Shown: piece after piece, positions 3,001 through 29,475 of the stretch
Numbering within the stretch: position 1 is the first letter of the stretch
Layout of the letters: every line of letters starts with the position of its first letter
Assembly (NCBI RefSeq): GCF_000374165.1
Contig: NZ_KB893761.1
Coordinates: 36,741 to 100,740, forward strand
DNA length: 64,000 nucleotides
From: Parafrankia elaeagni
Lineage (GTDB): Bacteria; Actinomycetota; Actinomycetes; Frankiales; Frankiaceae
Direction: 5' to 3'
Position numbers and translations under genes: made by a program
The notes under the pieces: generated by a model
What the model was told of the DNA's origin: nothing
Seen by the model: only the letters and a program-made list of their open reading frames with translations
The model's database searches: none

Positions 3001-6000
3001 GTGACTGACGTGGTCGATCGCCGCCCGCCAGAGCGGAGCCACGCTGATGTCGAAATCTTCAAGCGGCAGCTGGAAGCGGCGAATGTCACCGACGTTGTTG
3101 TCGGCTTTGATCCGGCCCTCGTCACCGGCACGAACGATCTGGGCAAGTTGCCTGACCGTCAGATCCGGATACTTGGATCCAAGTACGAGGAAGCGTGCCG
3201 TGCTCCGCAACAGTCGTGATGTGGTTTCCGCCGAGAACAACTCACGGGCCGCGTTCAGATTCATTCCGAACGCGCCGCTGTCAAGTCTTTCGATACTCGA
3301 CACGAGATCGAACAGCGCAGGTTGGGATGCCAGCGGGCCATCCGCAGTGGTCGAGGCGTAGTTGGTGAGCGGTGACTCCGCGCCCGAATCTCCACCGCGA
3401 TCCACGTAGGCGGCCATCACCTGGAAAAGCGGACTGATCCCAACCCGCCGCAGCGGGTTCACCGCCTCGACGACGTGCTCGAACGGAACGAGCTTGTGGT
3501 CAGCAGCTTCGAGCATGCGATCGCGGCAACGGAGCAGCGTCTGCGCGAACCCGGTTGCGGCATCGATGTCGACGCGCACCACGACGGTGTTCACGAAATA
3601 CCCGATGAGGTCCTGCAACTCGGGCTGGTCGCGCAGACTGGCCGGGGTGCCGACAGGTACCGTGTCGTCGGCACCTTCATTCCAGAGCGCCAGGGAAAAT
3701 GCCGCGATCAACGCCTGCAGTGGTGTTGCCCTGTGCTCGACCATGAATTCGTCGACCGTGGCTGTCTCATGGCTGGTGAGGGACGTGGTGGCAGGTCGTA
3801 TGGTTCGTTTTTCGGATTTTTCGCGTGGCTGGTCGAGGGGTAGGACGGTTTCCGTCGGGAGATCTGACAGTGTGTCCTGCCAGTACCGCAGGTCCGCCTG
3901 ATAGCGAGACTCCGGATCTTTACGGCTGCCCAGCACATGTCGCTGCCAGACCGCGAAGTCGGCATACTGAATCGACAATGGTGCGACTTCTGTGGAATTG
4001 CCGGAAGCCGATTCGAGATAGAACTTGTTCAGCTCGTCAACGAGAATCACAAAGGAATCTGCATCGATAACCATGTGATGCCCGTAGGCTACCAGCACAT
4101 CGCCATCGGAATGACGCAACAAATGAAACTTCAGTCCGAACTCGGAGGTGAAGTCAAGCGGCAGTGCGGCAACCCGAGCGATCTCGTCGCCGAGCGGCTC
4201 GGGGCCGACGTGTTCGACCTCCAGGACCTTGGTGTCGTCGTCGGGTTTCGCGCAGATGACCTGGCGGAGCGATGAGGTCTCCTCGTCCGGCACGAGGATC
4301 GTATGCAAGATCTCGTGACGAGCGACTACCCGGCGTACCGCCGTTGCCAATGCATCCAGATCGAGCCGCACGCCTGCTTGCAGCACGATTTCAGTGCGAT
4401 AGATCGAACGCCCTGCGATCTGCTCTGTGAACCAGAGTGCTTGTTGTCCGTATGAGACTGGTAGGGCGGTGGGGCGTGGTAGGTCGCCGATGCGTGTGCT
4501 GGATGTCTTGGTGGTGGTGGTGGTGGCGGTGGTGGTGTCGGCGATGTGGGCGAGGTCGCTGATGCGGGGGTGGTCGAAGACGTCGCGGAGTGTGAGTGCG
4601 GTGCCGAGTTGTGCGTTGGCGCGTGCGACGACGCGTGTGGCGAGTAGTGAGTGTCCGCCGAGGCGGAGGAAGTTGCTGTCTACGCCGAGATCGGTGTCGT
4701 CGGTGAGGTGTAGTACGTCGCGGAAGATGGCGGCGAGGGTGATCTCGGTGTTGGTTTCTGGTGGCCGGCCGTGGGCTGTTTCCGTGCCGAGGTCTGGTTG
4801 TGGGAGGGCGTGGCGGTCTAGTTTCCCGTTGGCGGTGACGGGGAGTCGGTCCAGGTGTGTGAACGTTGCGGGGATCATGTAGTCCGGCAGTGATTGTGTC
4901 AGGTGTTCGCGGAGTGCGTCGATCGGTATTGTGTCGGTGGTGCTGGTGGTGGTGATGTATGCGGCGAGGTATTTTCCGCCGGCGGGGTGGTCCAGGGCGG
5001 TGATGACGGCGCCTGATACTGCTGGGTGTTGTTCGAGGACGGCGCGGATTGCGCCGGGTTCGATCCGGTATCCGCGTATTTTCACCTGGTCGTCGTTGCG
5101 GCCGAGGTATTCCAGCTGTCCTTGGGAGTTCCATCGCACGACATCGCCGGTGCGATACAGCCGTGTGCCGTTGTTACTGAACGGATCAGCCACGAACCGG
5201 TCGGCGGTCAGGCCCGCGCGTGCGACGTATCCGTGGGCGAGTTGCACTCCGCCCAGGTAGAGCTCACCTGCGACACCGGCCGGTACTGGGCGCAGCCACG
5301 CGTCGAGGACGTGCGCTGTGGTGTTCGTGACCGGTGTGCCGATGGGGGTGTTGTCGGTGATGATGGCTGCCGTGCCATCGCCGGTGACTTCGGTTGAGCC
5401 GTAGAAGTTGTGGAGTGCTGCCTGTGGCGTGGTGGTCCGCAGGGTGGTTGCGGTGCCGGGGGTGAGTGCTTCGCCGGAGGAGACCCAGGACCGGATCGTG
5501 GTGAGCGATGTGGGTGCGTCGTCGTGGCGGACGAGGACGTCGGCCAGGCTGGGCACGGTCAGGAGATGGGTGACGTGGTGTCGGGCGATGGTGTCGAGCA
5601 GGCCGGCTGGGTCCTGCGCGGTTTCTGGGGGCACGACCACGGTTCGGGCACCGGCGATCATCGGCCCGAACAGCTCGGTCACGGCGTCGACGAAACCGAC
5701 ACCACTTTTCGAGAGCGCCACACTGTCCGGTGTGTAGTCCAGTACCTGTTGACCCCAGGTGAGGCGGTTCACCAGGCCGCGGTGCGAAACGGTGACGCCT
5801 TTCGGGTTGCCTGTCGTTCCTGAGGTGAAGATCACGACGGCTGCGTCAAGGTCGTTCAATGGCCGTGTCAGAGCAGGGGCGGCTTCCTGGCCGGTGGCCA
5901 GCCGTCGCTGTACTTCGTGGTCGTGGATCCGCAGTGCTGGTGTGCGGTGTTCACCCAGTACGTGTCGATGCGTTTCTGCGGTGTGCTGGTCGATGATGAC

Positions 6001-7683
6001 CAGCGCGGGTGTGGCGTTGTCGATGATGTGTTTGACGTGTTCTGTGGGGTATCCCGGATCGATCGGTACGTAGGCCGCTCCCACGCGGATCACTCCGGTG
6101 AGTGCCACGACCAGGTCGACCGAGCGCTTCATCGCGATCGCGACGCGGTCCCCGACCCGCACGCCCTCATCGATCAGGAGGTGAGCGACAGCGTTGACCT
6201 GTGCATCGAACTGGCTGTAGGTGAGTTCGGTGCCGTCGTCGGCGACGACCGCGACCGCGTCCGGATCGGCCGCGACCCGGCGGCGCACCAGCGCGTCCAC
6301 CGTTACCGACGCGCCTACCGTCGCCGGCGCGATATCAAATGTCTCGCCTTGCGCCCACGACGGATCCGGGCCGTCGGTATCGGGTGTGAATCCGGCGCTC
6401 AGGTCGTGCAGGGTTCGGGCCGGGGACCCGTCGAGGACGGCGTTGAGGAAACGGCTGAAGTGTTCGGCGTGCAGGAACGGATCGCTCGTGGCGGATCCTG
6501 TGGATAGCTCTAGCCGGATTCCGGTGTCGGGGTGGCGGTAGATCGCGAGGTCGAGTGATCCGACCGGGCCGGTGCTGATCGTTTCGGAGACCGCGGCGGT
6601 GTCGCCGAGGTGCGGTGTTGAGTCGAAGAGCCTGATGTTGATTGTTGGGAGTGTGAGGTAGGAGGCTTGGCCATCTGGCCAGAGGCGGGCGATCTGGTGG
6701 TCTTCGACGGTCGTGTGGCGCCGGGACGTCTTCAGCTGGTTCGCGACGGTCTCGAGGATGTGTTCGAAGGTGTGGTACGGGCGGATCTCGGTGACGACCG
6801 GGATCGCCCGTGAGATCGCGCTTGGTGTTTTCAGTGATTCGCGGTCGTCGCGCATCATCAGAGGAACCCGGACCGCTACACAGTCACGACCGTCGACCAG
6901 AGCGGTGTAGACGCCCCACAGCGCGATCAGGGAATCGGTCCAGGAGACCCGTGCGGTGCGGGCGACCTGCTGAACCTTCGAGTAGGTGTCGTCGGGTATC
7001 GGGACGACCACGGGCCGACTGGAGGACACGAAGACCTCGGACAGGTCTTCCGCGTTCCCGTGGCCGGTCTGCTCGATGCCGAGGATGCCACTCCAGTAGG
7101 CGACACCTTCTTCGGTCCTGGAACCGCTGGAGTTCCTGGCGTCTGTGACGGTCTTCAGGCTGCCGAACCAGCGGTCCGGGACCGCGTCGCCGGCGTGCGT
7201 CGCGGAGTAGACCTCGGCGACGCGGCGGATGAACAGAGAAATGCTGTAGCCGTCAACGAGCAGGATGTTGGTGATCAGGATCCATGCCCAGGTGCCGCTC
7301 TCGCGGCGTATCAGGGTCGAGCAGGTCGTCGGTTCTCCGGTGGTGGCCGGTGGTCCGGTGAGTTGTTCGCGGGCCAGGACTCGGATCTGGTCGTCGCCGT
7401 GCCCGGCGTCGATGATCTCTGTGGTGATTGTCGTGGTGGTGTCGACGTACTGGAAAGGGACACCGTCGTCGTCACTGAAACGTACCCGCAGCGCGTCGGT
7501 CTCGGTAAATACAGCACTGACCGAGGACGCGAACAGCGTCGGATCGACCGGGCCGTCCAGCCACATCAACTGGCCCGCGCAGAACACCGATGAGTCGGGG
7601 GCGAGCCTCCGAGCCACCCAGTTGCCTCGCTGGCTCGCAGTCAACTCCACACGATCGGAAGCTGTCAACGGAAGCACACCCAC
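1..7683 (-). CDS. Non-ribosomal peptide synthetase, C*-A(beta-Ala)-T-C-E*-C-A..., 3' end beyond the window
   Basis: One frame stays open on the minus strand from GTG 7683 to the left edge (2561 codons), so the product is C-terminally incomplete. Domains by residue: condensation-like (10-430) with NILLVDG in place of HHxxxDG; adenylation (463-960); carrier domain LGGHSLLA near 1014; condensation (1081-1480) with HHMVIDA; an epimerase-like stretch (1510-1830) recognisable by its C-terminal half; condensation (1857-2280) with EHILLDG; then an adenylation domain cut by the edge. Binding-pocket residues of the first A domain read V235 D236 T239 L278 V299 S301 F322 G330 D331, a beta-alanine-type code. 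The second condensation domain has no A-T partner before the epimerase-like part. Two in-frame GTGs (7683, 7677) follow AAGAGGGG; the second has better spacing. It is divergent from the exporter operon with an iron box between. I infer peptide siderophore assembly. Confidence 0.93.
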   Translation of the reverse strand, partial: MGVLPLTASDRVELTASQRGNWVARRLAPDSSVFCAGQLMWLDGPVDPTLFASSVSAVFTETDALRVRFSDDDGVPFQYVDTTTTITTEIIDAGHGDDQIRVLAREQLTGPPATTGEPTTCSTLIRRESGTWAWILITNILLVDGYSISLFIRRVAEVYSATHAGDAVPDRWFGSLKTVTDARNSSGSRTEEGVAYWSGILGIEQTGHGNAEDLSEVFVSSSRPVVVPIPDDTYSKVQQVARTARVSWTDSLIALWGVYTALVDGRDCVAVRVPLMMRDDRESLKTPSAISRAIPVVTEIRPYHTFEHILETVANQLKTSRRHTTVEDHQIARLWPDGQASYLTLPTINIRLFDSTPHLGDTAAVSETISTGPVGSLDLAIYRHPDTGIRLELSTGSATSDPFLHAEHFSRFLNAVLDGSPARTLHDLSAGFTPDTDGPDPSWAQGETFDIAPATVGASVTVDALVRRRVAADPDAVAVVADDGTELTYSQFDAQVNAVAHLLIDEGVRVGDRVAIAMKRSVDLVVALTGVIRVGAAYVPIDPGYPTEHVKHIIDNATPALVIIDQHTAETHRHVLGEHRTPALRIHDHEVQRRLATGQEAAPALTRPLNDLDAAVVIFTSGTTGNPKGVTVSHRGLVNRLTWGQQVLDYTPDSVALSKSGVGFVDAVTELFGPMIAGARTVVVPPETAQDPAGLLDTIARHHVTHLLTVPSLADVLVRHDDAPTSLTTIRSWVSSGEALTPGTATTLRTTTPQAALHNFYGSTEVTGDGTAAIITDNTPIGTPVTNTTAHVLDAWLRPVPAGVAGELYLGGVQLAHGYVARAGLTADRFVADPFSNNGTRLYRTGDVVRWNSQGQLEYLGRNDDQVKIRGYRIEPGAIRAVLEQHPAVSGAVITALDHPAGGKYLAAYITTTSTTDTIPIDALREHLTQSLPDYMIPATFTHLDRLPVTANGKLDRHALPQPDLGTETAHGRPPETNTEITLAAIFRDVLHLTDDTDLGVDSNFLRLGGHSLLATRVVARANAQLGTALTLRDVFDHPRISDLAHIADTTTATTTTTKTSSTRIGDLPRPTALPVSYGQQALWFTEQIAGRSIYRTEIVLQAGVRLDLDALATAVRRVVARHEILHTILVPDEETSSLRQVICAKPDDDTKVLEVEHVGPEPLGDEIARVAALPLDFTSEFGLKFHLLRHSDGDVLVAYGHHMVIDADSFVILVDELNKFYLESASGNSTEVAPLSIQYADFAVWQRHVLGSRKDPESRYQADLRYWQDTLSDLPTETVLPLDQPREKSEKRTIRPATTSLTSHETATVDEFMVEHRATPLQALIAAFSLALWNEGADDTVPVGTPASLRDQPELQDLIGYFVNTVVVRVDIDAATGFAQTLLRCRDRMLEAADHKLVPFEHVVEAVNPLRRVGISPLFQVMAAYVDRGGDSGAESPLTNYASTTADGPLASQPALFDLVSSIERLDSGAFGMNLNAARELFSAETTSRLLRSTARFLVLGSKYPDLTVRQLAQIVRAGDEGRIKADNNVGDIRRFQLPLEDFDISVAPLWRAAIDHVSHALSGSSLALRLAIRDSGAGELVAETGNPAMLDAVREKLTELVAAYQAKIPMVVVTSTRAASGYKDDELAAVLDDPFWEDWVDQLADATATVLRQRGDSVASGASGTTAGRAAPAADQTSLRSVVLAAVAKALTEIAEGDLLVELHESDGPLMARRFPVLLDDGDVIGLSPERAAEYAALAGHPRFSRFFDDLPIPRIRVGVFRSNAELITEPAAGVGVPGDGLDIHVLIAGRGPDDCVVRVWVESADTVDVNAEALAAVISEEIAGAGVPAAGRERREPFTLRRADRVTLTPGEEESIRARYGHDAQILPLSPLQRGLFYHLLRSQESDDHNTYVAQITRQIAGDLDPERMTTAIASAMERYPNLQAAFVPPGDVQVIPAGVEVPVRVIRLDEWGGLGVDVEQFLAAERGEPFDFEVPPLIRFTLLEHGHRAWTLVMSFEHILLDGWSINALLAEILSIYADDGYVDRVRPASFRSYLDWVDDQDPAAAYRAWDGYLAELTGPTLLCPGFVDLGDAQSETGELHLDLSPAEAAMVFGAARDAKVTVGTLLQTAWGIVLSRLIGSNDVVFGNTVSGRPPSLPDADRIIGLLFNTVPMRVVLPPFETTRQVLAQVQSEQLLVIDHPQAALTQIQINAGVPVLFDTLFVVQNMPLGEAAGQDTTGLQVVDAKVDDATHYPVTFAVDPEERDGAATVHVRLSYRRDMFDAPAAELLLKRYVQILASLVRRLDEPVGMLSALLPDETAPHTGIAADLIRDIEPVTVAELLHRQVLLSGSETALVAGDRQFTFAEFFAEVNSYARLLLAEGVCPEHRVALLLPRDERTVIAMFAVFVIGAAYVPVDTELPDQRIGYMLEVAEPTVTLVTGRDVDRLAGTVGKVINLDSATTVDRLAQLAVAPVTAAERGGQISLDNLAYIIFTSGTTGRPKGVAVGYRGLTNMYFNHVEKIFDRVVDHQRGRRLKIAHTTSFSFDASWEQLFWLLNGHEVHVIDEEMRRDHQRLLA

Positions 7684-7738
7684 CCCTCTTGAGACCAGAT
7701 CGAGCCGACCGAGGCAACGATCACTACACCCTCAACGA

Positions 7739-7758
7739 AGGGTAGGTTAACCTTGCCT
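7739..7758. promoter_or_regulatory. IdeR/DmdR-type iron box between NRPS and exporter operon
   Basis: GGTAGGTTAACCTTGCC contains the perfect palindrome AGGTTAACCT (7744-7753) and matches the core of the actinobacterial iron-box consensus TTAGGTTAGGCTAACCTAA. It lies 56 bp upstream of the NRPS start on one side and just before the exporter operon on the other, so one site could repress both when iron is plentiful. This is a pattern match only. Confidence 0.75.
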
Positions 7759-7759
7759 C

Positions 7760-7972
7760 ATGCCACCACCCATACCGCCGCCCGACCGAGGAGAGGTCTT
7801 CATCAGGTACGACAAGCGTCTCGCGACGACGGCCTGTCGGTGTTCGATCCCGGGCAGGTCGTTCCAGGATGAGGAACTCTCCGGAGCCCGGCAGCGGCGA
7901 GCGTGGGTGGCTGCGGCGCTCACGCAGCGCACTGACATCCTGCTGCTGGGCACGGACCGGGGGCGGCCATGA
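7760..7972 (+). pseudogene. Internally deleted ferric-siderophore ABC ATPase (FepC-like) remnant
   Basis: This 70-codon frame starts directly behind the iron box and overlaps the exporter gene by ATGA. Its first part (IRYDKRLATTACRCSIPGRSF) follows the N-terminal strand of the intact FepC-like ATPase at 32574-33455 (IGYDRRVISRDLSVVIPDESF). It then jumps to ELSGARQRRAWVAAALTQ and DILLL, the signature and Walker B region of the same family. The Walker A segment and everything between are missing, and the Walker B aspartate-glutamate is lost (LLLGTDR instead of LLLDEPT). It cannot bind ATP normally. It may still be translated as a leader peptide coupled to the next gene. Confidence 0.72.
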
Positions 7973-9720
7973 GGAACGCCTCACACTCCGACCCGTCGGG
8001 GCTGGGGCGGGCACCTCTGGCCCGTCGGTTGCCTGTGCTCTGGCAGGCACCCACCGATCCGCCCGAGGTCCAGCCGTTCGAGGTCGGCCCGGGGACCACG
8101 GCCGGTCGATTCCTGTTGCACGCGATCCTCTCGGTGCCGCGGGTCTCCGTTCCCGCGGCGCTGACCTCGGCCCTGTGGCAGGTGGGCGAAGCCGCGGTCC
8201 CAGTGGTGATGGGCCTTGCGATCGACCGGGCGTTGGCAACCGGGAACGCGGGGCAGTTGGCGCTGTGGCTTGGCGTACTGGTGGCCTTGTACATCGTGTT
8301 GACGGTGGCGGCGAAGTTCGCCGTCCAGCTGACCGCGTATGCGATACAGCTGCTGCAGCACCGACTCCGGAGCACCCTCTCGACCGGCGTACTGCATCCG
8401 GTCGGCGGCAGCGTCCACGCGCCGGGCGGCGGCGTCGTCTCGGTGATGACCAACGACGTCGCCCGCATGGGGAACGGGGTCCAGCTCGTGATCATGCCGA
8501 TCGCGAGGATCACGACCATCGGATTCATCGCTGTGTCGCTGTTGACGACGCACTGGCTACTCGGGCTTGCGGTGCTGGTGGGGGCGCCGGCGGCGGTGTG
8601 GTTGATGGGCATCCTCAGCGAGCGGCTGTCCCGGGACACCCGCGAGTACCAGGGACTGCTGGCCACCACAGTCGGACTGGCCACGGATGTCGTGGCCGGC
8701 TACCGGGTGGTCAAGGGGATACGCGCCGAGGACGAGGCGACCAGAAGGTACCGGCAGGCAAGCCAGGAGACGCTGGTCGGCGCCAAGCGCAATGCCGGAC
8801 TGCTGGGGGGCTTCCTGATGGGCTCCGGTGTGGTCACCGGCACATTCGTCGCAGGGGTGATGGGGCTGGCGGGCTGGTTCGCCGTGGACGGGCGGCTGAG
8901 CATCGGCGAGCTGATCGCCACCGTCGGCCTTGCTCAGGCGCTGCTGCCGCAGATCCAGTCGATCGCATACGACTCCATCCCCAACCTCGCCGGATCCCGC
9001 GCCGCGTCCGCGCACATTCTCGACGTGCTCAGAACCGACGTCGCCGTGACGCCCGAGCCTGACGAGGTGGCGCGGCCGGTGGTTCTTCAGCAGCTGCCGG
9101 TGCTGGAGGTGTCGACGCCCAGCGCGACGATCCGGGTAAAGCCCGGCGAACTCGTGGGAGTGCGCACCGACGACCTGACTGCTGCCCGCGTCGCCGAGGC
9201 GCTGCTGGATCCGCGTGGGTCTGGCAGCGAGGTGGAGGTGCGGCTGGACGGGATCGCCGCGCGGGAGTTGACCGCGCAGGAGTACCGTTCCTGGGTCACG
9301 CTCACGCCACACCGAGTCATGCTGTTCAGCGGAACGATCCGCGACAATCTCACCACCACTGCGGCCGCCCCCGAGCTGGTGGCAGCTGCGGTGCGGGCTG
9401 CGGCATGCGGTGATTTCGCCACCGATCTCGACCTCCCGGTCGGCGAGGACGGCAATCGCTTCTCCGGCGGCCAGCTCCAGCGACTCGCGCTTGCCCGCGC
9501 CCTGGCCAGCGACGCGCCGGTGCTCGTGCTGCATGACCCGACCACGGCGGTCGACTCGGTCACCGAACACACGATCGCGAAGCGGCTGCGCGACGTCCGC
9601 GCGGGCCGCTCGACCCTGCTGATCACCTCGTCACCCGCGTTGCTGGGCAGCTGCGACCGCGTCGTCGACCTGCTCGCGGAGGCAGCGGAGGCACCAGTGC
9701 ACGCAAGGACAACATCATGA
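7969..9720 (+). CDS. ABC exporter half-transporter A with degenerate ATP site
   Basis: 583 residues with an N-terminal exporter-type membrane domain (about residues 40-330) fused to a nucleotide-binding domain (about 360-575). The signature motif FSGGQLQRLALARAL is intact. The P-loop position reads LVGVRTDDLTAARV with no GK(S/T), and Walker B is VLVLHDPTT, with proline where the catalytic glutamate should be. The next gene overlaps by ATGA and encodes the complementary half. Together they make a heterodimer with one sound and one dead ATP site. Position in an iron-box-controlled operon beside the NRPS suggests siderophore export, or YbtPQ/IrtAB-like import; sequence alone does not separate these. 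Confidence 0.9.
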   Translation: MRNASHSDPSGLGRAPLARRLPVLWQAPTDPPEVQPFEVGPGTTAGRFLLHAILSVPRVSVPAALTSALWQVGEAAVPVVMGLAIDRALATGNAGQLALWLGVLVALYIVLTVAAKFAVQLTAYAIQLLQHRLRSTLSTGVLHPVGGSVHAPGGGVVSVMTNDVARMGNGVQLVIMPIARITTIGFIAVSLLTTHWLLGLAVLVGAPAAVWLMGILSERLSRDTREYQGLLATTVGLATDVVAGYRVVKGIRAEDEATRRYRQASQETLVGAKRNAGLLGGFLMGSGVVTGTFVAGVMGLAGWFAVDGRLSIGELIATVGLAQALLPQIQSIAYDSIPNLAGSRAASAHILDVLRTDVAVTPEPDEVARPVVLQQLPVLEVSTPSATIRVKPGELVGVRTDDLTAARVAEALLDPRGSGSEVEVRLDGIAARELTAQEYRSWVTLTPHRVMLFSGTIRDNLTTTAAAPELVAAAVRAAACGDFATDLDLPVGEDGNRFSGGQLQRLALARALASDAPVLVLHDPTTAVDSVTEHTIAKRLRDVRAGRSTLLITSSPALLGSCDRVVDLLAEAAEAPVHARTTS

Positions 9721-11480
9721 GCGGGGCATCTGCGGCAACCGGGCACGCGCTGCCGGTCGCGGGCGGCGGGGAGACAGCCAGAGAGGTGTGGCGGCTCAGC
9801 CGCGGGCACCGGCTCCGGCTCGTCGCTGTCGGAGTGCTGGGGATAGTCAGCACCGGCATCAACGTGATCCCGGCCTTGATCGTCGGTTACCTCGTCGACC
9901 GAGTGCAGGACGGTACCGCTGACTCCGGCACCGTGCTGACGGTCACGGCCGTCATGGTGCTCTCGGCAGTTCTCGGCGCGGTCGGCACCGCGGTGACGAT
10001 CGTCATGGCCACCCGCGTCTACCACACCATCCTCGCCGCGCTGCGTGAACAGCTCGTGGGCCGCGCCATGACGCTCCCGCAGCACATCGTCGAACGCGCC
10101 GGGACCGGGGACCTGATCTCCCGGACCAGCGACGACGTCACCGCCGTAGCCGATGCCGCACCCGCCGTGATCCCCGCGCTCACTGTCAGCGGGTTCTCCA
10201 TCGTCGCGTCGCTGGGCGGGCTTGCGGCACTGGAATGGCCGTACGCCGTCGCGTTCGCCGTCGTACTGCCCGTCTACCTACTCGTCATGCGCTGGTATCT
10301 CCGCGTCGCTCCGCAGGTATATGGCGCCGAACGTGCGGCGATGAGCGCGCGGGCACAGCAGATCCTCGAGTCCCAGCGGGGCTACGCGACCGTACTCGGG
10401 CTCGGGCTCACCGAGCAGCGGCACCACACGGTGATGGCCACGTCCTGGGTTGTCGCGGTGCGCACACTCCGCGCGCGCACCGTGATGGCCATGCTCAGCC
10501 TCCGCCTGAACCTCGGGGAATGTCTGAGTCTGGCCACCGTCCTCATCGTCGGCTTCGTCCTGATCGATGCGGACGCATCCACCGTCGGCGGCGCCACCGC
10601 CGCGACGTTGATCGTCCTGCGTCTGCTCGGACCGCTCAACGAGCTGCTGTACGTCGTTGACGACCTCCAGTCGGCCCTCGCATCGCTCAGCCGCATTATC
10701 GGGGTCGCCACCATCCCGGAGGAAGCGGGCGAGCTGACAGCGACAGCGGGCACGGGCATCGCCGTGCGGCTTCACGAGGTCGCATTCAGCTATGACGGCG
10801 GCCCCCGTGTGCTTGACAACCTCACCTTTGACGTCCCCGCCGGTCAGCGCGTCGCTGTGGTCGGCGCCTCCGGGGCCGGCAAGACGACGCTCGCCGGCGT
10901 CATCGCCGGCATCCACCTACCCGACACCGGGGCGGTGGCCCAGCCCGTCCGAACTACGTTGATCACCCAAGAGACGTACGTGTTCGCCGGCACCCTGCGG
11001 GACAATCTGACGCTCGGCGCCCCCAGCGCCACCGACCACGACATCCGTGCAGCGCTGGACGCCACCGGGGCGGCCGGTCTGCTCGACCTGCTGCCGGACG
11101 ATCTCAACACGATCATCGGGACCGGCGGGCATCCGCTCACCGATGCACAGGCTCAACAGCTCGCCCTCGCCCGACTACTGCTCGCCGACCCGGAACTGGC
11201 GATCCTCGACGAGGCGACCGCCGAGGCCGGCTCCACCCATGCGGGGTTGTTGGACCGTGCCGCCGAGGCGGTTCTGCGTGGTCGCACCGGGTTGGTGATC
11301 GCGCATCGCCTCTCCCAGGCCGCCACCTGTGACCGGATCATCGTCATGGAGCACGGCCGGATCATCGAGACCGGAACACATGACGAGCTGGTCGCCGCTG
11401 GTGGCGTGTACGGCGGGCTGTGGAGCGCGTGGGAGGCCGGGCGGAGTATGAACAACAAGTCCGGGAAGGACTACTCATGA
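9717..11480 (+). CDS. ABC exporter half-transporter B with intact Walker motifs
   Basis: 587 residues. The membrane domain covers about residues 30-320 and the ATPase domain 345-575. Walker A is GASGAGKTT, Walker B is LAILDEAT with its glutamate, and the H-loop is LVIAHRLSQ. The signature is degenerate (PLTDAQAQQLALAR in place of LSGGQ). In the head-to-tail ATPase dimer, this Walker A/B pairs with the good signature of half A. The start overlaps the stop of half A (ATGA) and the stop overlaps the methyltransferase start, so translation is probably coupled. Fragments of a second copy of both halves lie at 31.8-32.6 kb. Confidence 0.92.
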   Translation: MSGASAATGHALPVAGGGETAREVWRLSRGHRLRLVAVGVLGIVSTGINVIPALIVGYLVDRVQDGTADSGTVLTVTAVMVLSAVLGAVGTAVTIVMATRVYHTILAALREQLVGRAMTLPQHIVERAGTGDLISRTSDDVTAVADAAPAVIPALTVSGFSIVASLGGLAALEWPYAVAFAVVLPVYLLVMRWYLRVAPQVYGAERAAMSARAQQILESQRGYATVLGLGLTEQRHHTVMATSWVVAVRTLRARTVMAMLSLRLNLGECLSLATVLIVGFVLIDADASTVGGATAATLIVLRLLGPLNELLYVVDDLQSALASLSRIIGVATIPEEAGELTATAGTGIAVRLHEVAFSYDGGPRVLDNLTFDVPAGQRVAVVGASGAGKTTLAGVIAGIHLPDTGAVAQPVRTTLITQETYVFAGTLRDNLTLGAPSATDHDIRAALDATGAAGLLDLLPDDLNTIIGTGGHPLTDAQAQQLALARLLLADPELAILDEATAEAGSTHAGLLDRAAEAVLRGRTGLVIAHRLSQAATCDRIIVMEHGRIIETGTHDELVAAGGVYGGLWSAWEAGRSMNNKSGKDYS

Positions 11481-20900: not shown

Positions 20901-22492
20901 CCGGTGAGTGTCACGACCAGGTCGACTGAGCGTTTCATGGCGATCGCGACGCGGTCCCCGACGTGGATGCCTTTGTCGATCAGGAGGTGAGCGATGGCGT
21001 TGACCTGTGCGTCGAACTGGCTGTAGGTGAGTTCGACGCCGTCGTTGTCGGCGACGACCGCGACCGCGTCCGGATCGGCCGCGACCCGGCGGCGCACCAG
21101 TGTGTCCACCGTTACCGACGTGTCTGCTGTCGCCGGTGCGATGTCGGGTGTGTCGCTGTGCGCCGATGACGGATCCGGGTTGTCGGTATCGGGTGTGAGT
21201 CCGGTGCTCAGGTCGTGCAGGGTTCGGGTGGGGGGCCCGTTGAGGGCGGTGTTGAGGAAACGGCTGAAGTGTTCGGCGTGCTGGAGCGGATCGTTGGTGG
21301 TGGATCCTGTGGAGAGTTCCAGTCGGATTCCGGTGGCGGGGTGGCGGTAGATCGCGAGGTCGAGTGATCCGACCGGGCCGGTGCTGATTGTTTCGGAGAC
21401 CGTGGGGGTGTCGCCCAGGTGTGGTGTTGAGTCGAAGAGTCTGATGTTGATGGTCGGGAGCGTGAGGTACGAGGCCTGGCCGTCTGGCCAGAGGCGGGCG
21501 ATCTGGTGGTCTTCGGCGGTGGTGTGGCGCCGGGACGTCCTGAGTTGGTGTGCGACGGTCTCGAGGATGTGTTCGAAGGTGTGGTAGGGGCGGATCTCGG
21601 TGACGACCGGGATCGCCCGTGAGATCGCGCTGGGTGTTTTCAGTGATGCGGGGTCGTCGCGCAGCATCAGGGGAACCCGGACCGCTACACAGTCACGGCC
21701 GTCGGCCAGGGCGGTGTAGACGCCCCACAGTGCGATCAGGGAGTCGGTCCAGGAGACCCGTGTCGTGCGGGCGAGCTGCTGGACCTTCGAGTAGGTGTCG
21801 TCGGGTGTCGGGACGACCACTGGCCGGCTGGAGGACACGAAGACCTCGGACAGGTCTCCCGTGTTCCCGTGGCCGGTCTGTTCGATGCCGAGGATGCCAC
21901 TCCAGTAGGCGGTACTTTCCTCGGTGCTGGAACCGTTGGGGTTCCTGGTGTCCGTGACGGTTTTCAGGTTGCCGAACCAGGGGTCCGGGACCGTGTCGCC
22001 GGCGTGTGTCGCGGAGTAGACCTCGGTGACGCGGCGGATGAACAGGGAAATGCTGTAGCCGTCGACGAGCAGGATGTTGGTGATCAGGATCCAGGCCCAG
22101 GTGCCGCTCTCACGACGGATCAGGGTCGAGCAGGTCGTCGGTTCTCCGGTGGTGGCTGTCGGTCCGGTGAGTTGTTCGCGGGCCAGTACCCGGATCTGAT
22201 CATCGTCGTGGCCCGTGTCGACGATCTCTGTGGTGATCGTCGTGGTGGTGTCGACGTACTGAAAGGGAACACCGTCGTCGTCGCCGAAACGTACTCGCAG
22301 TGCGTCGGTCTCCGCGGCAACGGTACTGACCGAGGACGCGAACAGGGCCGGGTCGACCGGGCCGTTCAGCCACATCAACTGGCCCGCGCAGAACACCGAG
22401 GACTCAGGGGCAAGCCTCCGCGCCACCCAGTTGCCTCGCTGGCTCGCACTCAACTCCACGCGCTCGGAAGCCGTCAACGGAAGCACACCCAC
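14912..22492 (-). CDS. Non-ribosomal peptide synthetase, C*-A(beta-Ala)-T-C-A(Ser)-T-E*
   Basis: 2526 residues, complete. Domains: condensation-like 10-430 with NILLVDG instead of HHxxxDG; adenylation 462-960; carrier LGGHSLLA near 1018; condensation 1084-1520 with HHHAVDE; adenylation 1534-2050; carrier [10 protein letters not shown] near 2104; and a C-superfamily terminus 2154-2526 with VHAATVD at the active site. The first A code is V235 D236 T239 L278 I299 S301 F322 G330 D331, beta-alanine-like. The second is D V W H F S L V D, the standard serine code. GGDS carriers usually precede epimerase domains, which fits the last domain, but its second histidine is alanine. There is no thioesterase, so the chain must pass to another enzyme. 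Start candidates are GTG 22492 and GTG 22486, behind AAGAG. An iron box lies upstream. Confidence 0.95.
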
Positions 22493-22545: not shown

Positions 22546-22564
22546 GAAGGTTAGGCTAACCTCG
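22546..22564. promoter_or_regulatory. IdeR/DmdR-type iron box upstream of the second NRPS
   Basis: GAAGGTTAGGCTAACCTCG matches the inner 15 bases of TTAGGTTAGGCTAACCTAA exactly (AGGTTAGGCTAACCT, 22548-22562). It is the best match of the six boxes in the window and sits 56 bp from GTG 22492, the same spacing as at the first NRPS. Confidence 0.85.
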
Positions 22565-23012: not shown

Positions 23013-23044
23013 GCCAACATCAAACAGGTTTGTCCAAGCCGCCA

Positions 23045-23180: not shown

Positions 23181-23358
23181 TTACCATTGCTGCAGGCTGA
23201 GCTGCGGATCAAGGACCGGCTGCGGCTCGCACGGATAGTGCCGCCGCTCGGCCTGGCCACGGTCGATGCCGGCTGGTCGGGTTATCGGTGGCAATTCATC
23301 TGGGTTGACGAGGCAGCTTGACTGCCGAAGAAATGTGGCTGTCGCTGGGGAGGCGGAC

Positions 23359-24807
23359 ATGCGCGATCCGGAGATTGTTGTGGTGGGCGGAGGAAACGCC
23401 GGTTACTGCGCGGCTCACGCGGCGGCCGAGCGTGGGCGACGCGTAGTGCTGCTGGAGAAGGCGCCGCGGGCGCATGCCGGTGGGAACAGCTACTACACCC
23501 TGGGTTCGACCCGGATGGTGCACGACGGGCTCGGCGATCTGCTCGAGGTCCTGGCGCCTGATGAGCGTCACGCGCGTACTGAGGTCCCGCCGTATCCGGC
23601 GGCGGAGTTCCTGGCCGATCTGGAGCGGGTCACCGAAGGGCGGGGCGACAAGGAACTCGCCGAGGCAGTCGTCGAAGGCTCGCGTGACGCTGTCCGCTGG
23701 CTGCATACATTGGGGCTGCGATTCCAGCTGATGTACGAGCGGCAGGCTCACGAGCATCCCGACGGGACCTTCGTGTTCTGGGGTGGATCGCACGTGTGTA
23801 ACGTCGACGGCGGACCTGGGCTGATGTCGTTCCATGAGCGCGCCGCATCACGACTCGGAGTCGAGGTGCACTACAACTGCTCGGTCACGGGGCTGATGAC
23901 TGATGGTGGTTCGGTCGTTGGCGTTCGGATAGGCGATCAGGAGCTTCCAGCGGAGTCGGTGGTGATCGCCAGCGGCGGTTTCGAGGCGAATGCGCAATGG
24001 CGTCAGCGATATCTGGGAGACGGCTGGCAGCACGCGAAGGTGCGTGGCACGCCGTACAACACCGGGGACCTGATCGGCGCGGCGCTGGAGATAGGTGCAG
24101 ACCGTGGAGGCGACTGGTCGACCTGCCATAGTGTTCCGTGGGACGCGTCATTTCCCGGGAACGAGAGCAATCGTGCCCTGACGAACCGGCTCAGCCGGTA
24201 CGGCTATCCGCTCGGCATCGTTGTCAACCGCCGGGGTCGACGGTTCTTCGATGAAGGCGCGGACTTTCGCAACTATACGTACGCGAAGTACGGCAAGGTG
24301 ATCCTCGAACAGCCGGGTTCGGTGGCGTTTCAGATATTCGATGCGAAGTCGCGCCCGATGCTGGCGGGGTACGAGTACGAGATGCCCGGGATCGTCCCGT
24401 TTGTCGCCGACAGTCTCGAAGAGCTCGCCGCGGCCATGGATGTCGACGTCGACGGATTCGTTCAGACGGTTCGGGAGTTCAATTCATCGATCGACACCAC
24501 CCATCCGTTCGATCCGACGATCAAGGATGGCCGCAGCGCAGCGGTGGAGCCCGTCAAGAGCAATTGGGCATCGGCGATCGAGGCCCCGCCGTACTACGCG
24601 TATCCGGTGACTTGTGGAATCAGTTTCACCTTCGGTGGCCTTCGCGGTGACGTTGATGGCCGGGTGCTTGATCGGTCGGGTAAGCCCATCCCCGGACTCT
24701 TCGTGTGCGGTGAATCGCTCGGCGGGCTCTTCAGCGCGAACTACCCGACAGGTGCTGGCCTGATCGCGGGAATGGTGATCGGGCGACGTGCCGGCTCGCT
24801 CGCCTGA
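23359..24807 (+). CDS. FAD-dependent dehydrogenase, fumarate reductase/tricarballylate dehydrogenase (TcuA)-like
   Basis: 482 residues from ATG 23359, preceded by GGGGAGG. An earlier ATG at 23266 would add 31 unsupported residues. The FAD-binding motif VVVGGGNAGYCAAHAAAE is at the N-terminus. ASGGFEAN, a central capping-domain region and the closing GLFVCGESLGGLFSANYPTG with GAGLIAG are typical of the flavoprotein family that includes TcuA, which oxidises tricarballylate to aconitate. The substrate is uncertain; 3-ketosteroid dehydrogenases share the fold. No partner TcuB is present. It lies alone between inverted IS66-derived ends, so it may have arrived with the mobile element. A link to siderophore synthesis is not shown. 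Confidence 0.8.
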   Translation: MRDPEIVVVGGGNAGYCAAHAAAERGRRVVLLEKAPRAHAGGNSYYTLGSTRMVHDGLGDLLEVLAPDERHARTEVPPYPAAEFLADLERVTEGRGDKELAEAVVEGSRDAVRWLHTLGLRFQLMYERQAHEHPDGTFVFWGGSHVCNVDGGPGLMSFHERAASRLGVEVHYNCSVTGLMTDGGSVVGVRIGDQELPAESVVIASGGFEANAQWRQRYLGDGWQHAKVRGTPYNTGDLIGAALEIGADRGGDWSTCHSVPWDASFPGNESNRALTNRLSRYGYPLGIVVNRRGRRFFDEGADFRNYTYAKYGKVILEQPGSVAFQIFDAKSRPMLAGYEYEMPGIVPFVADSLEELAAAMDVDVDGFVQTVREFNSSIDTTHPFDPTIKDGRSAAVEPVKSNWASAIEAPPYYAYPVTCGISFTFGGLRGDVDGRVLDRSGKPIPGLFVCGESLGGLFSANYPTGAGLIAGMVIGRRAGSLA

Positions 24808-24951
24808 GCCGCTGCCCAGGACGCGTGCGCACGTGCCGTCGGAAGCCGCCGTGCGGCCCGCATGCCTCGGGGTGAGCGGTCGGCCGCCGAGCGGACTGGC
24901 GATCTCCTCAGTTTGATTTTTAACCCTTTCCTTGCTGGTGGGTGGTCACGG

Positions 24952-25800: not shown

Positions 25801-25819
25801 CAGCCCGTCGTGCGTAACT

Positions 25820-25945
25820 GGTCCCATTAGGCCTCGTAGATTGTTTGTTTTCGTTTCCTGGCCGGCTGGGACGCTGTGGTGGCCATGCGGTCCCGGAGTG
25901 TTGGCATAGTGTGGTTCATCGGCCCGTAGGGTCCGGGTGTGTCCG
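25820..25945 (-). repeat. IS66-derived end, inverted partner of 23045-23180
   Basis: The reverse complement (GGACACACCCGGACCCTACG, then ACTCCGGGACCGCATG, TCCCAGCCGGCCAGG, ATCTACGAGGC) aligns with 23045-23180. It lies immediately upstream of the IS66-like transposase remnant. Both copies also give matching short translations (TPxPYGPxN...RDR), so the conserved part could be coding. Confidence 0.58.
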
Positions 25946-27178
25946 ATGACCCGCCCGCGCCGCCCGTGGCGTCGTATGACGAGCTCACGGCGCTGGTGGT
26001 GGAGCAGGCGGCCTGATCACACAGTTGCGGGCCGAGCCGGAACAGGCCCGGGCGCGGATCGCCGAGCTGGAAGCCCAGGTCGCGAAGACGCCACGGAACT
26101 CCTCGAAGCCCCAGAGTTCGGACGGGCTGGCGAAGCCGGCCCCGAAGTCGTTGCGGACGAAGACCGGTCGGCGGCCTGGCGGGCAGGCCGGCCATCCCGG
26201 GGCGACGCTGCGGATGGTCGACGATCCTGATGTGCGTGTCACACACGAGCCCGGGCCGTGTGGCGGGCGCGGGACGTCGCTTGCGGGCCGGCCGGTGACC
26301 CGCCTCGAACGCCGGCAGGTGTTCGACCTGCCCGAACTACGCCCCCACGTCACCGAACATCAGCTCGTCGAGCGGGAATGCGGCTGCAGGACACGCACAA
26401 AGGCGACCGTACCGGCGATCTACCTGTACTCCGGGCAGTTCCTGTCGACCGAGCGGACCGCGATCGCGCTCGCGCTCGCGCTCGCCGAGCTGGTTGGGAT
26501 ACCGCTGTCCGCGGGCACGGTCGCGGCGATGACCGCCCGGACAGCCGCCGGGATCGACGCGTTGGGGGTGCTGACCGGCTTCACCGGGGTCGTGGTCCAC
26601 GACGCCTGGGCGCCGTACGACACCTACACCTACACCTGCGCCACCCACCAACTGTGCGTCGCCCACCTGCTCCGCGAGCTGCAGGCCGTGAGTGACACCG
26701 CCCCGGCCGGCACCTGGTGCTGGGCGGCCCAGGCCGCCGACGCCCTCGTCGCTCTGCACCGCCTCACCGTCGACGCCACCACCACCGGCAATCCCGGCCG
26801 ACCCGAAGACGCTGGCAGCCCACACCCAGGCGCTGCGTCACGCCGCCCACATCGGGATCAGCCAGACCTCACCGCGGGGCACGAAACTCATGGCCGCCCG
26901 CCACGCCCTGGCCTGCCGGCTCGTCGACCGCGAAGCCGACTACCTGCGGGTTCACCCACGACCTGCGGGTCCCCGCGGACAACAACGGCTGTGACCGCGA
27001 CATCCGCATGATCAAACTACGGCAGAAAGTCTCCGGGTGCCTCCGCACCCTCACCGGCGCCCGCCAGTTCTGCGCGATCCGAAGCTACCTGTCCACCGCC
27101 ACCAAACACGGCATCAGCCAGTTCGACGCCCTCCGCCGCCTGGCCGAGGGCCGCCCCTGGATGCCCGCAACCACCTGA
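25938..27178 (+). mobile_element. Decayed IS66-family transposase
   Basis: The N-terminal DELTALVVEQAA is followed by a one-base deletion near 26014. The frame then continues through the zinc-finger-like segment (TRLERRQVFDLPELRP, ECGCRTRTK), VHDAWAPYDTY, HQLCVAHLLRELQAV and, after shifts near 26790 and 26950, RVPADNNGCDRDIRMIKLRQ and ALRRLAEGRPWMPA. The block between TARTAAG and IDALGVLTGF, which should hold the first catalytic aspartate, is missing. With one deletion and at least three frameshifts it is inactive. It ends about 30 bp before the iron box of the hydroxylase gene. Confidence 0.82.
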
Positions 27179-27207
27179 CCCAAGATCAAAAAAGTACTTG
27201 ACTGGTT

Positions 27208-27226
27208 ACGTTAGGTTTACCTAAGT
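27208..27226. promoter_or_regulatory. IdeR/DmdR-type iron box upstream of the N-hydroxylase operon
   Basis: ACGTTAGGTTTACCTAAGT contains the near-perfect inverted repeat TTAGGT-tt-ACCTAA (27211-27224). It follows directly after the IS66 remnant, so the operon has kept its own regulation at the junction. A 16-codon frame (27238-27288) lies between box and hydroxylase start. Confidence 0.78.
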
Positions 27227-27313
27227 TCTTGGTGCTATGGTTGGCCTTCGATGGGGGATGACCGGCCCTTGCGCCGTTCGTTCGTGACCTGTGGCAAAAG
27301 GGGCCATTGCTGG

Positions 27314-28690
27314 ATGACGAAGGATGAGTTGATCAATTGCGGTGACCGTCGTCTCGGATCGGGAGATTGTGTCGGCGGCGAGGTCGACATTCTTGGTATC
27401 GGTTTCAGGTCGTCGGATCTGAGCCTGGCGAGCGCGATTGAGGAACTCAATGGTGGTCGTCGTACGGGCTGGCGGCTGACGGCGAGTTTTGTCGATGTCC
27501 GGCGGCGGTTCGGGTGGCATGGCGGGATGTTGTTTCCGGGCACGACCATGCAGATCGGTTTCCTGAAAGATCTCATCTCGCTGCGGAACCCGACCAGTCT
27601 GTCCACGTTTCTGAACTATCTGCATGAGCAGGGGCGGGTGTACGACTTCATCAATCTCAAGACGTTCTTCCCGACGAGACGTGAGTTCCACGGGTACCTG
27701 AGCTGGGCCGCGAGTCGGATCGACCTTCCGGCCTCTTACGGTACGAGGACGACCTGTATCGACTGGAGTGGCGGGAGGTTCGAGGTCGCGCTCGAGTCCG
27801 TAGGCGACGGCTCGGAGGTGACGAGGGTCGCGGCACGTCATGTGGTGATCGGCTCCGGTGGCCGGCCGGTGCTACCGGAGGGGATCGTGCCGGGAGCCAG
27901 GGTGTTCCACAACCATCACTTGCTGAACAGGCTCGCCGAGTTGCCCTCGCGGCCGCACGGCCGTTTCCTTGTCGTAGGGTCCGGGCAAAGTGCGGCGGAG
28001 GTCGCTGCGTACCTGCACGATTCGTATCCCGATGCCGAAATACACGCGTCCTTCCGCCGGTACGGCTATACTCCGTCCGATGGCACGCCCTACACCAACC
28101 GCATCTTCGATCCGGGGGCGGTTGACGCGTTCTACACGGCACCGCCGGAGCTCAGGCAGCAATTGCTGGACTATCACTGGCAGACCAACTACTCCGCCGT
28201 CGATGCCGACCTCATCAAGGATCTCTACCGGCGTGAGTACGCCGAAAGCACGCGTGGTGTGCGTCGGCTGATCGTGCACCGGGTCACCGGGATCGAGCAT
28301 CTGAGCGAGGGCTCCGACGGGGTTACAGTGACGATCCGTGACCTGGGAAACCGGGGCAGCGCCACGCTCGAGGTCGACGCTGCCATCTTCGCCACCGGGT
28401 TCCGTCCCGCGGACACCCGCAGCATGCTTGGGCCGAGCATTGACGGGTCATCCTCGTCCGAGGGGGATCTCCCGATCGTCGAGCGTGACTACCGGCTGCG
28501 TCTGCGCAGCGTTCTCGAACGGATCTTCCTCAACGGAGGGTTCCTGCGCAGTCACGGGTTGACCTCGTCCCTGCCGTCCAACGTCGCGATCCGCGCCGCC
28601 GACATTCTGCGTGCGATCACCAGCGAGCAGCCCGGTCACCCCTCCGCCCAGCAACGATTGCCTGCTGCGATCCGGACCGACTCCCGATAG
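27314..28690 (+). CDS. L-ornithine/L-lysine N-monooxygenase (SidA/PvdA/IucD family)
   Basis: 458 residues from ATG 27314; an upstream ATG at 27251 in frame would add 21 poorly conserved residues. The family block [38 protein letters not shown] and [15 protein letters not shown] is intact. So are the NADPH-binding [12 protein letters not shown] and the closing [10 protein letters not shown]. These flavoenzymes hydroxylate the side-chain amine to make hydroxamate precursors. The FAD loop reads [12 protein letters not shown] where family members have GIGFGPSNLALA: three usually fixed residues are changed, which may weaken flavin binding. Ornithine versus lysine cannot be settled by eye. The MbtH gene follows 21 bp later. 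Confidence 0.9.
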
Positions 28691-28711
28691 TAACAACGAG
28701 GAGCAACACTC

Positions 28712-28987
28712 ATGGCCCAGAATCCGTTCGACGACGACAACGGTTCCTTCTACGCGCTGATCAACCGCGAGGAGCAGCACTCGTTGTGGCCGACGTTCAA
28801 GCCGGTGCCGGCCGGTTGGAGCATCGCGTACGGCGAACCCGGCGGCAGACCGCGCCAGGAAGTACTCGACTGGATCCACGAGCACTGGACCGACATCCGC
28901 CCGAAGTCGTTGCGCGATCACATTTTCCGGTACGAGACACACAACGCCAACAAGGCCGCTGGCGCATCCGACGCCGCCCTTGCGTAG
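28712..28987 (+). CDS. MbtH-like NRPS activator protein
   Basis: 91 residues. The family signature is complete: [15 protein letters not shown], and [17 protein letters not shown] with its tryptophans and WTDxRP. MbtH proteins bind adenylation domains and are often required for their folding and activity. It is in the hydroxylase-panD operon, 21 bp behind the hydroxylase and 74 bp before panD, with GAGGAG upstream. It presumably serves the two NRPSs of this locus. Confidence 0.95.
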
Positions 28988-29061
28988 CAAGGCGGCCCGA
29001 AGATCATCGACTGATCCACAGAACCCACCCCGCACAACTCATAGAGGAAGAGGAGCCGGAC

Positions 29062-29475
29062 ATGCTTCGCGAAGTCCTGGCCGGAAAAATCCACCGCGCC
29101 ACCGTCACTCAGGCCGACTTGCACTACGTGGGTTCGCTGACACTCGATGAAGACCTCGCGCGTGCCGCGGGCCTGACCGAAGGTGAGAAAGTTCAAGTCG
29201 TCGACATCACCAACGGAGCCCGTCTCGAGACCTACATCATTGTCGGGCCCGCTGGAAGTGGCGACATCTGTATTAACGGCGCGGCGGCACATCTCGTCCA
29301 CCCCGGCGACCTCGTGATCATCATGTCTTTCGTGCTGGCCGAGGAGTTCGAACTGGCCGGCTTCCAGCCCAAGGTCGTACACGTCGACGCCACCAACCGC
29401 ATCATCGCCTTGGGTAACGACCTCGCCGAGCCGGTCCCAGGGGCGGACGATCAGGTTTCTTCTCGCATGAGATGA
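29062..29475 (+). CDS. panD: Aspartate 1-decarboxylase, pyruvoyl enzyme making beta-alanine
   Basis: 137 residues from ATG 29062, with AGAGGAAGAGGAG upstream. [18 protein letters not shown] is the conserved start. The self-cleavage site YVGS gives Gly24-Ser25, the serine becoming the pyruvoyl group. NGARLETY supplies Arg54, Thr57 and Tyr58, and [10 protein letters not shown] is the expected central loop. The enzyme converts aspartate to beta-alanine, normally for pantothenate. Here it is the last gene of an iron-boxed operon with a hydroxylase and MbtH, near two NRPSs whose first A domains carry beta-alanine-type codes, so it most likely supplies siderophore building blocks. The tail ([15 protein letters not shown]) is a little longer than usual. 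Confidence 0.95.

Follow-up and report, generated by a model that had tools for sequence, protein, structure and literature searches.

Why should a locus for nonribosomal peptide synthesis carry its own gene for aspartate 1-decarboxylase? The question is raised by a 64,000-nucleotide stretch of Parafrankia elaeagni DNA (positions 36741–100740 of contig 92, NZ_KB893761.1, of a 7.59 Mb draft genome that is 98.08% complete with 5.46% contamination), referred to here in its whole length as the window. In it a panD gene stands between two nonribosomal peptide synthetase (NRPS) genes and further genes of siderophore type. The evidence makes it highly probable that the locus is an iron-repressed siderophore cluster carrying its own beta-alanine supply; from its two modules, two beta-alanines are predicted in each product. 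A preliminary description had proposed such a pairing of supply and use; it was silent on a second dapB gene and on transport genes extending to about 40.2 kb, and the AMP (adenosine monophosphate) ligase and FAD (flavin adenine dinucleotide) hydroxylase genes lay outside its view.

Two start modules with a predicted beta-alanine pocket

Both synthetases are encoded on the minus strand. NRPS1 occupies 1–7683, where the window edge cuts it; the whole gene (contig 34875–44423) encodes 3182 aa in the order C0-A-T-C-X1-C-A-T-TE, in which C, A, T and TE are condensation, adenylation, thiolation and thioesterase domains, C0 is the N-terminal C domain and X1 a stretch described below. NRPS2 (14912–22492, 2526 aa) reads C0-A-T-C-A-T-X2. 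The first A domains, at 4804–6291 in NRPS1 and 19598–21097 in NRPS2 (both minus strand), share the stretch F-V-D-A-V-T-E-L, which contributes V235, D236 and T239; the remaining pocket residues are L278, V299 (NRPS1) or I299 (NRPS2), S301, F322, G330 and D331, giving the codes VDTLVSFGD and VDTLISFGD. Pockets were read by hand on GrsA numbering, with 299 and 301 set by S301 just before a conserved G-E, and that of NRPS2 is backed by a HMMER alignment to linear gramicidin synthetase. The earlier reading that both synthetases open with a V235-D236, (I/V)299, S301, D331 domain is thus confirmed. Both domains match the pattern that we take to be that of beta-alanine activation, namely Asp at 236 rather than 235, a hydrophobic residue at 235 and a retained D331, and both are predicted to activate this substrate. 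The second A domain of NRPS2 (16343–17845, minus strand) has the code DVWHFSLVD exactly as previously written, and this code supports serine. The last A domain of NRPS1 reads DAEDSGLIN by hand, which presumably lies between lysine-type and hydroxyornithine-type codes.

This VD-type signature is rare. An exact DNA pattern for it matches the P. elaeagni genome twice, both times inside the two NRPS genes. Among 394 genomes of the class, 8 match, and the translated matches in the other 7 are not A domains; the reversed control pattern is absent from the matches listed. The exochelin-type cluster of Mycolicibacterium sp. CH28 has pockets reading VDTVISSAD and DMENLGLIN, the first close to what we take as the beta-alanine code and the second equal to the presumed hydroxyornithine code.

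A panD clade linked to VD-type modules

The window panD (29062–29475, plus strand) scores 154.6 bits against a cut-off of 106 for TIGR00223 and keeps the Y-V-G-S self-processing site (G24-S25). It follows genes for an amino acid N-hydroxylase of the Lys/Orn family (27332–28690) and an MbtH-like protein (28712–28987), both on the plus strand, with an iron box at 27208–27222, so that a complete panD in an iron-boxed hydroxylase-MbtH operon is borne out. Two further panD genes are present in the genome, on contig 45 (63% like the window copy) and contig 78. The latter (locus L007, 40270–42128, near the contig end) adjoins an MbtH gene and an AMP-ligase match that has no N-terminal part; this group is possibly a remnant of another beta-alanine siderophore cluster, or contamination.

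We compared 14 genomes: P. elaeagni, two of the same genus (G017 and G020), and eleven reached through loci found by likeness to the VD-type modules; the 13 more distant of 27 such loci were left out of the panD comparison. Because the eleven were picked for that likeness, with CH28 as the exochelin-type case, their VD domains are there partly by choice; panD was not so chosen. The VD pattern occurs twice in P. elaeagni, S. geranii, Phytohabitans maris, Kribbella albertanoniae, SID13031, S. blattellae and A. flavalba, three times in A. craniellae, Actinocorallia and Kineosporia, once in CH28, and not in G017, G020 or Streptomyces S3 (where locus L034 starts behind the A-domain site); the reversed control gives 0 in 14/14. 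A cluster-type panD (at least 75% alike) is found in P. elaeagni and ten relatives, including Streptomyces S3, while the CH28 gene is 62% alike and lies beside its hydroxylase. Cluster-clade panD and a VD-type A domain share a contig in 10 of the 11 VD-positive genomes, those of S. blattellae being split over contigs. G017 and G020, which carry a sister cluster, have a single panD each, 63% alike and of the housekeeping kind, and no VD pattern. G017 has two start modules, one of which can be read through its pocket (FDVSVPEFF, D235-type), the other being cut just before it.

The NRPS-associated PanD proteins form one clade (12/12 rows, support 99/95, recovered in 98% of 200 bootstrap trees) apart from 11 others. 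This tree holds 23 of 25 rows, the contig 78 copy and SID13031 copy 2 being left out; in another tree (19 of 25 rows) the contig 78 protein fell within the clade. The pairing holds in clusters whose NRPSs are only about 41–49% like those of P. elaeagni. VD-type modules number 2 and 3 at the two Actinomadura loci and 3 at an Actinocorallia locus, in each case beside an MbtH-panD-AMP ligase row; the 3 of Kineosporia lie about 4 kb from panD, and the mycobacterial exochelin-type cluster of CH28 shows the pairing as well. A plasmid collection yields 295 records that match panD, of which three were read. One of these, plasmid pLS2-1 of Pseudonocardia sp. HH130630-07, carries genes for a SIP protein, a monooxygenase, MbtH, PanD and three NRPSs, with one I235-D236 A domain. 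A separate panD clade linked to VD-type A domains in related clusters therefore lends support to the pairing of beta-alanine supply with its use.

Several observations weigh against this interpretation. The part of a published A-domain code list used here, which covers alpha-amino acids, yielded no VD code, and the literature searched for the classic beta-alanine code gave no match. As a negative control G017 and G020 offer little, because two of their start modules are cut by contig ends before the pocket. On a plasmid of Embleya sp. NBC_00896, hydroxylase, MbtH and panD genes lie near NRPS genes with hydroxyornithine-type codes, and no VD domain occurs in the 40 kb read; in S. cattleyicolor panD lies about 10 kb from an NRPS in which no VD domain was seen. 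Modules also do not map simply onto residues, because NRPS1 has two C domains flanking a stretch without a recognised fold. Finally, the cluster-type gene is the sole panD found in Kribbella and Kineosporia, and so should serve pantothenate there too.

The last point, together with the Embleya and S. cattleyicolor loci and the role of PanD as the normal first step to pantothenate, would fit a different function, in which the cluster gene feeds coenzyme A and phosphopantetheine synthesis for the carrier domains under iron starvation and contributes no residue to the product. We consider this improbable. The sister clusters of G017 and G020 have NRPS genes without a second panD, and the assembled G017 start module is not VD-type; no other pantothenate gene was found among the cluster proteins scanned; and P. 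elaeagni has a separate panD on contig 45. If the supply of a beta-alanine residue is the correct explanation, such residues could be recognised from the genome by a panD gene in an NRPS siderophore cluster, and members of the family could be followed through Streptomyces, Kribbella, Phytohabitans and Actinomadura-type relatives.

Iron boxes and the predicted pathway

Within the window, iron-box-like 15-mers with at most 2 mismatches to AGGTWAGSCTWACCT occur 6 times, spread over 5 sites, where 0.01 matches would be expected. A box without mismatch precedes NRPS2 (22548–22562). Two overlapping matches with 2 mismatches each lie between NRPS1 and the ABC genes (7739–7758), and the box before the hydroxylase-MbtH-panD operon also has 2. 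One with a single mismatch ends 1 bp before dapB (30897–30911), and the fifth site, with 2 mismatches, lies between the second SIP-methyltransferase gene and an AraC-family gene (38574–38588). Outside the window, the AMP-ligase-like gene has its own box (contig 31900). In 7 of 8 clusters (P. elaeagni, S. geranii, S. blattellae, Phytohabitans, Kribbella, G017 and G020) the box ends 1 bp 5′ of the dapB start; the exception is SID13031, where dapB follows panD with no box 1 bp upstream. Because the box abuts the start codon with the same spacing in 7/8 clusters, it suggests a leaderless, directly repressed dapB transcript.

The pathway that we propose would begin with release of the repressor from these boxes upon iron starvation. 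PanD would convert aspartate to beta-alanine, and the first A domains of NRPS1 and NRPS2 would load one beta-alanine each, assuming that every module is used once. NRPS2 would add serine, and the last module of NRPS1 would add a diamino acid, probably N-hydroxylated, before its thioesterase releases the product; this residue order is a prediction. The ABC proteins may export the siderophore, and the FecCD permeases and SIP flavoproteins may handle its uptake and reduction. A set of dapB, TcuA-like dehydrogenase and FAD hydroxylase genes, which co-occurs with the aryl-AMP-ligase-like gene, would provide either a starter acid or lysine.

Condensation domains of the start modules

The C0 domain of NRPS1 (6304–7683, minus strand) reads NILLVDGYS instead of HHxxxDG. 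The HHxxxDG histidines are missing in 12/12 C0 domains of one clade, and in all three seen in G017 and G020. The 12 domains are separated with full support (100/100) from elongating C domains, which in the P. elaeagni cluster are of HH or EH type; long branches in this tree call for caution. Histidines are kept in the N-terminal C domain of the second NRPS of A. flavalba, A. craniellae and Kineosporia, and that domain should take a peptide chain. The P. elaeagni C0 motif reads NxxxxDxxS, near what we take to be the heterocyclisation (Cy) pattern DxxxxDxxS, and Actinomadura-type C0 domains match this presumed pattern itself. The HH-less C0 can occur without a beta-alanine partner, since in a start module on contig 71 of G017 (locus L011) it is joined to an A domain of D235 type.

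The start module of NRPS1 groups with that of NRPS2 from the same genome in P. elaeagni, S. geranii and Phytohabitans (100/100 each), and does not in SID13031. The two start modules of P. elaeagni are 88.1% identical to each other, and 82.6% (NRPS1) and 77.7% (NRPS2) identical to their S. geranii counterparts; the remainder of NRPS1 is 91.8% identical between the two species. The S. geranii NRPS2 was split at its second T domain, which makes its module row too long and leaves a rest of only 316 residues. In three of the four genomes tested the two start modules resemble each other more than their counterparts in other genomes, a pattern such as gene conversion would leave; it would agree with a product that has two arms and two equal starts.

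Two other regions are conserved at 68–92% with no Pfam domain over the cut-off: X1 (about aa 1500–1880 of NRPS1; 2044–3186, minus strand) and X2, the C-terminal stretch of NRPS2 (14915–16045, minus strand), which has weak similarity to C domains (E 0.037). Predicted structures are of low confidence for both, with mean pLDDT (predicted local distance difference test) of 38 for X1 and 42 for X2.

N-hydroxylase and the second gene set

A hydroxamate residue had been predicted. The N-hydroxylase encoded in the cluster supports it, with ornithine and lysine as candidate substrates, but the gene is missing or internally deleted in two related clusters, Kribbella and SID13031, in which dapB is retained. 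In SID13031 (contig 80, 410206–410715, locus L100) the hydroxylase gene is internally deleted while panD, dapB, the ligase gene and both NRPS genes give full-length matches, and the nearest other hydroxylase of that genome is 45% alike. The Phytohabitans match contains one TGA. A label as histamine N-hydroxylase was rejected (135.9 of 700 bits). The best score is with MbtG, a lysine hydroxylase; that it scores higher with MbtG than with KtzI is no longer read as pointing to lysine, since the exochelin-type control hydroxylase, presumably ornithine-acting, shows the same preference and the score does not discriminate.

A second dapB gene, for 4-hydroxy-tetrahydrodipicolinate reductase, lies at 30913–31659 (plus strand; TIGR00036, 173.7 bits over 122), and a gene for a TcuA-like FAD dehydrogenase at 23362–24807 (plus strand). 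The FAD_binding_3 hydroxylase gene and the aryl-AMP-ligase-like gene are found left of the window, beyond NRPS1. At thresholds set after the matches had been seen (at least 80% alike for dapB, 85% for the TcuA-like gene and 82% for the FAD hydroxylase), all three genes occur together in 9 of the 14 genomes, and none of them in the remaining 5, namely A. flavalba, A. craniellae, Actinocorallia, Kineosporia (with a 41% FAD hydroxylase) and CH28. The set is independent of panD: it is present in G017 and G020, which lack a second panD, and the four Actinomadura-type and Kineosporia genomes show the reverse. We consider a role in lysine supply and a role in making a starter acid about equally likely from these data.

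As a source of lysine, dapB would be a precursor-supply gene like panD, here for an N6-hydroxylysine residue, which is a credible though tentative explanation. It lies within about 2.5 kb of the N-hydroxylase gene in 5/9 clusters (P. elaeagni, S. geranii, S. blattellae, G017 and G020), it is iron-boxed, and in P. elaeagni and S. geranii some 35 kb separate it from the AMP ligase gene. The MbtG score of the hydroxylase points the same way at first sight, as does the last A domain of NRPS1, whose hand-read code is near what we take as the hydroxyornithine code DMENLGLIN with changes that fit a longer side chain. The MbtG score is offset, however, by the same preference in the exochelin-type enzyme, and dapB stays beside the AMP ligase gene in Kribbella and SID13031 despite the missing or deleted hydroxylase. 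In Phytohabitans dapB and the hydroxylase gene are on different contigs, and control of lysine synthesis does not usually rest with DapB.

The other role, possible if somewhat doubtful, is synthesis of a pyridine carboxylic acid by DapB, the TcuA-like dehydrogenase and the FAD hydroxylase: tetrahydrodipicolinate would be oxidised to an aromatic ring and hydroxylated, and the AMP ligase would activate the resulting acid as a starter. The joint presence or absence of the three genes favours it, as does the location of dapB, which in 6/9 clusters (G017, G020, Kribbella, SID13031, Phytohabitans and Streptomyces S3) is no more than about 4 kb from the gene for the AMP ligase or the FAD hydroxylase, with a run MbtH-dapB-AMP ligase-tcuA-FAD hydroxylase in G017 and G020. 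Yet the neighbours of dapB in P. elaeagni, S. geranii and S. blattellae are tcuA and the N-hydroxylase gene rather than the ligase gene, and in Phytohabitans tcuA is apart from dapB. The DapB catalytic motif, which we take to be HHxxKxDxPSGTA, is intact in 9/9 cluster copies. PnpA and the hydroxypyridine enzyme HspB are among the solved structures nearest to the FAD hydroxylase. For the TcuA-like protein these are fumarate reductases, a ketosteroid dehydrogenase and urocanate reductase, and this protein passes the cut-off for tricarballylate dehydrogenase (NF006130, 562.2 over 369), a different reaction that counts against the pyridine route.

The choice of starter bears on the same explanation. 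No salicylate or isochorismate synthase was found among the chorismate-binding proteins of P. elaeagni (5/5 scanned), S. geranii (5/5) and S. blattellae (3/3), which favours a pyridine acid; the five of P. elaeagni are below the cut-off of the salicylate synthase model TIGR03494 (best 173.8 of 325.15 bits). Against it, one isochorismate synthase each is present in Kribbella (2/3 scanned), SID13031 (2/3) and Phytohabitans (4/5), as also in A. craniellae (2/3), where these enzymes could serve menaquinone. The ligase scores 552.6 bits with TIGR02275, below the cut-off of 723.55, and S replaces DhbE Asn235, presumably the residue that binds the 2-hydroxyl, in 12/12 ligases. We weakened the altered pocket as proof of a non-benzoate starter, because three Actinomadura-type clusters without the three genes share it, and a Rhodococcus ligase is partly similar; it is no proof of a new substrate. 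The plasmid collection holds no close AMP ligase (best 47.5%). Should the set make a starter acid, it would be an iron-regulated branch from lysine and cell-wall synthesis to an iron ligand, through directly testable genes.

The doubled start modules allow these elements to be combined, with low probability, into a two-armed siderophore. Each start module would join a pyridine acid of the lysine pathway to beta-alanine through its HH-less C domain, and the two C domains of NRPS1 that follow its start module would join both arms on one N-hydroxylated diamino acid. On this unlikely scheme the pyridine acid would come from the combined action of DapB, the TcuA-like dehydrogenase and the FAD hydroxylase, and the altered ligase would activate it. 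Iron might then, as tentatively, be held by two pyridine-type groups and one hydroxamate. With both arms on one N-hydroxylated diamino acid, no separate acetyl- or formyltransferase would be needed for the hydroxamate; none was found among the 17 cluster proteins used as queries, the other intervening frames being only partly scanned.

Comparison with known siderophore systems

The exochelin-type cluster of CH28 is alike in that panD directly adjoins the N-hydroxylase gene inside an NRPS cluster. Exochelins reportedly contain beta-alanine, one in exochelin MS and two in exochelin MN; our searches did not confirm this. In contrast to P. elaeagni, the 40 kb read in CH28 has no separate AMP ligase, dapB or TcuA-like gene, and its NRPSs are 24–39% alike. 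The N-terminal C domains of the P. elaeagni NRPSs resemble those of EntF- and MxcG-type start modules but have no HHxxxDG, and the adjoining A domain is predicted to be for a beta-amino acid.

Comparison with printed accounts draws on passages of PMC10779116, PMC10951976, PMC12305651, PMC12283262, PMC11444679 and PMC13238742. In those on madurastatins, the products contain salicylate, D-Ser, Gly, one beta-Ala, N-methyl-hydroxyornithine and cyclic hydroxyornithine, with an oxazoline formed by a heterocyclisation domain (PMC10779116). The Actinomadura clusters mad, rene and mds share with ours NRPSs, an aryl-AMP ligase, an N-hydroxylase and an aspartate 1-decarboxylase (mds23, Mad61, ReneO) to which the beta-alanine supply is assigned (PMC10779116, PMC10951976). 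The idea of panD and its user in one siderophore cluster is therefore already known. The new features of this cluster are the dapB/TcuA-like/FAD-hydroxylase set and the near-identity of its two start modules, both of which have HH-less C domains; these may point to a starter acid of an unusual kind and to a product with two arms.

A relation to madurastatins had been left open in the preliminary description. The panD/beta-alanine logic is shared, and Actinomadura-type homologues have MbtH, panD and AMP ligase genes in a row, much as Mad60 (ligase) and Mad61 (panD) bear neighbouring numbers in the passages used (PMC10951976). That the cluster makes a madurastatin itself is nonetheless very unlikely. 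The product needs salicylate, and no salicylate synthase was found among the chorismate-binding proteins of P. elaeagni; the four A domains are two VD-type, one Ser and one DAEDSGLIN, with none of Gly type, and two VD-type domains contrast with the single beta-Ala of madurastatin. Compared by description, not by sequence, our locus further differs in having its VD-type modules on two NRPSs, in its NRPS layout, which has no Gly module, and in the added dapB/TcuA/FAD-hydroxylase set. It is not a madurastatin cluster.

Kasichelins of Streptomyces share a beta-alanine linker and a hydroxamate lactam but have a phenolate or catecholate oxazoline starter; in the passages used, their beta-alanine is suggested to come from uracil breakdown and a decarboxylase is not mentioned (PMC12305651). 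Kineochelin was compared and set aside. Literature searches combining siderophore with panD or beta-alanine, aspartate decarboxylase, exochelin with panD, and dapB/dipicolinate or picolinic acid with siderophore listed no recognised account of this cluster.

Neighbouring genes and origin of the cluster

Two ABC exporter subunits are encoded at 7969–9720 and 9717–11480, followed by a LCM-type S-adenosylmethionine methyltransferase at 11420–12334, all on the plus strand. Fusions of a SIP flavoprotein to an O-methyltransferase-like domain are encoded by two paralogues on the minus strand, at 12719–14569 and 36632–38497. Both have homologues in related clusters, and a 52% homologue adjoins panD on plasmid pLS2-1. 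Rightward, the siderophore-type genes extend to about 40.2 kb, with two FecCD ferric-siderophore permease genes (33452–36120, minus strand), the second SIP fusion and an AraC-family regulator (38632–40212, plus strand). The FecCD and second SIP genes sit within the high-GC half of the window, the guanine-plus-cytosine (GC) fraction being 0.64–0.69 in the first 32 kb and 0.70–0.74 in the remainder.

The cluster recurs in Streptomyces, Phytohabitans and Kribbella-like genomes, mostly at 70–97% identity. Horizontal transfer is suggested because its genes have their closest copies in Streptomyces (loci L016–L022, 97% at most), whereas the housekeeping panD falls with those of the P. elaeagni genus. 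A remnant of an IS66-type transposase gene lies directly 5′ of the hydroxylase-MbtH-panD operon (26025–27178), and transposase-like open frames were read by eye between panD and dapB (30367–30790). The distance between panD and dapB is much shorter in Kribbella and SID13031 than in the window.

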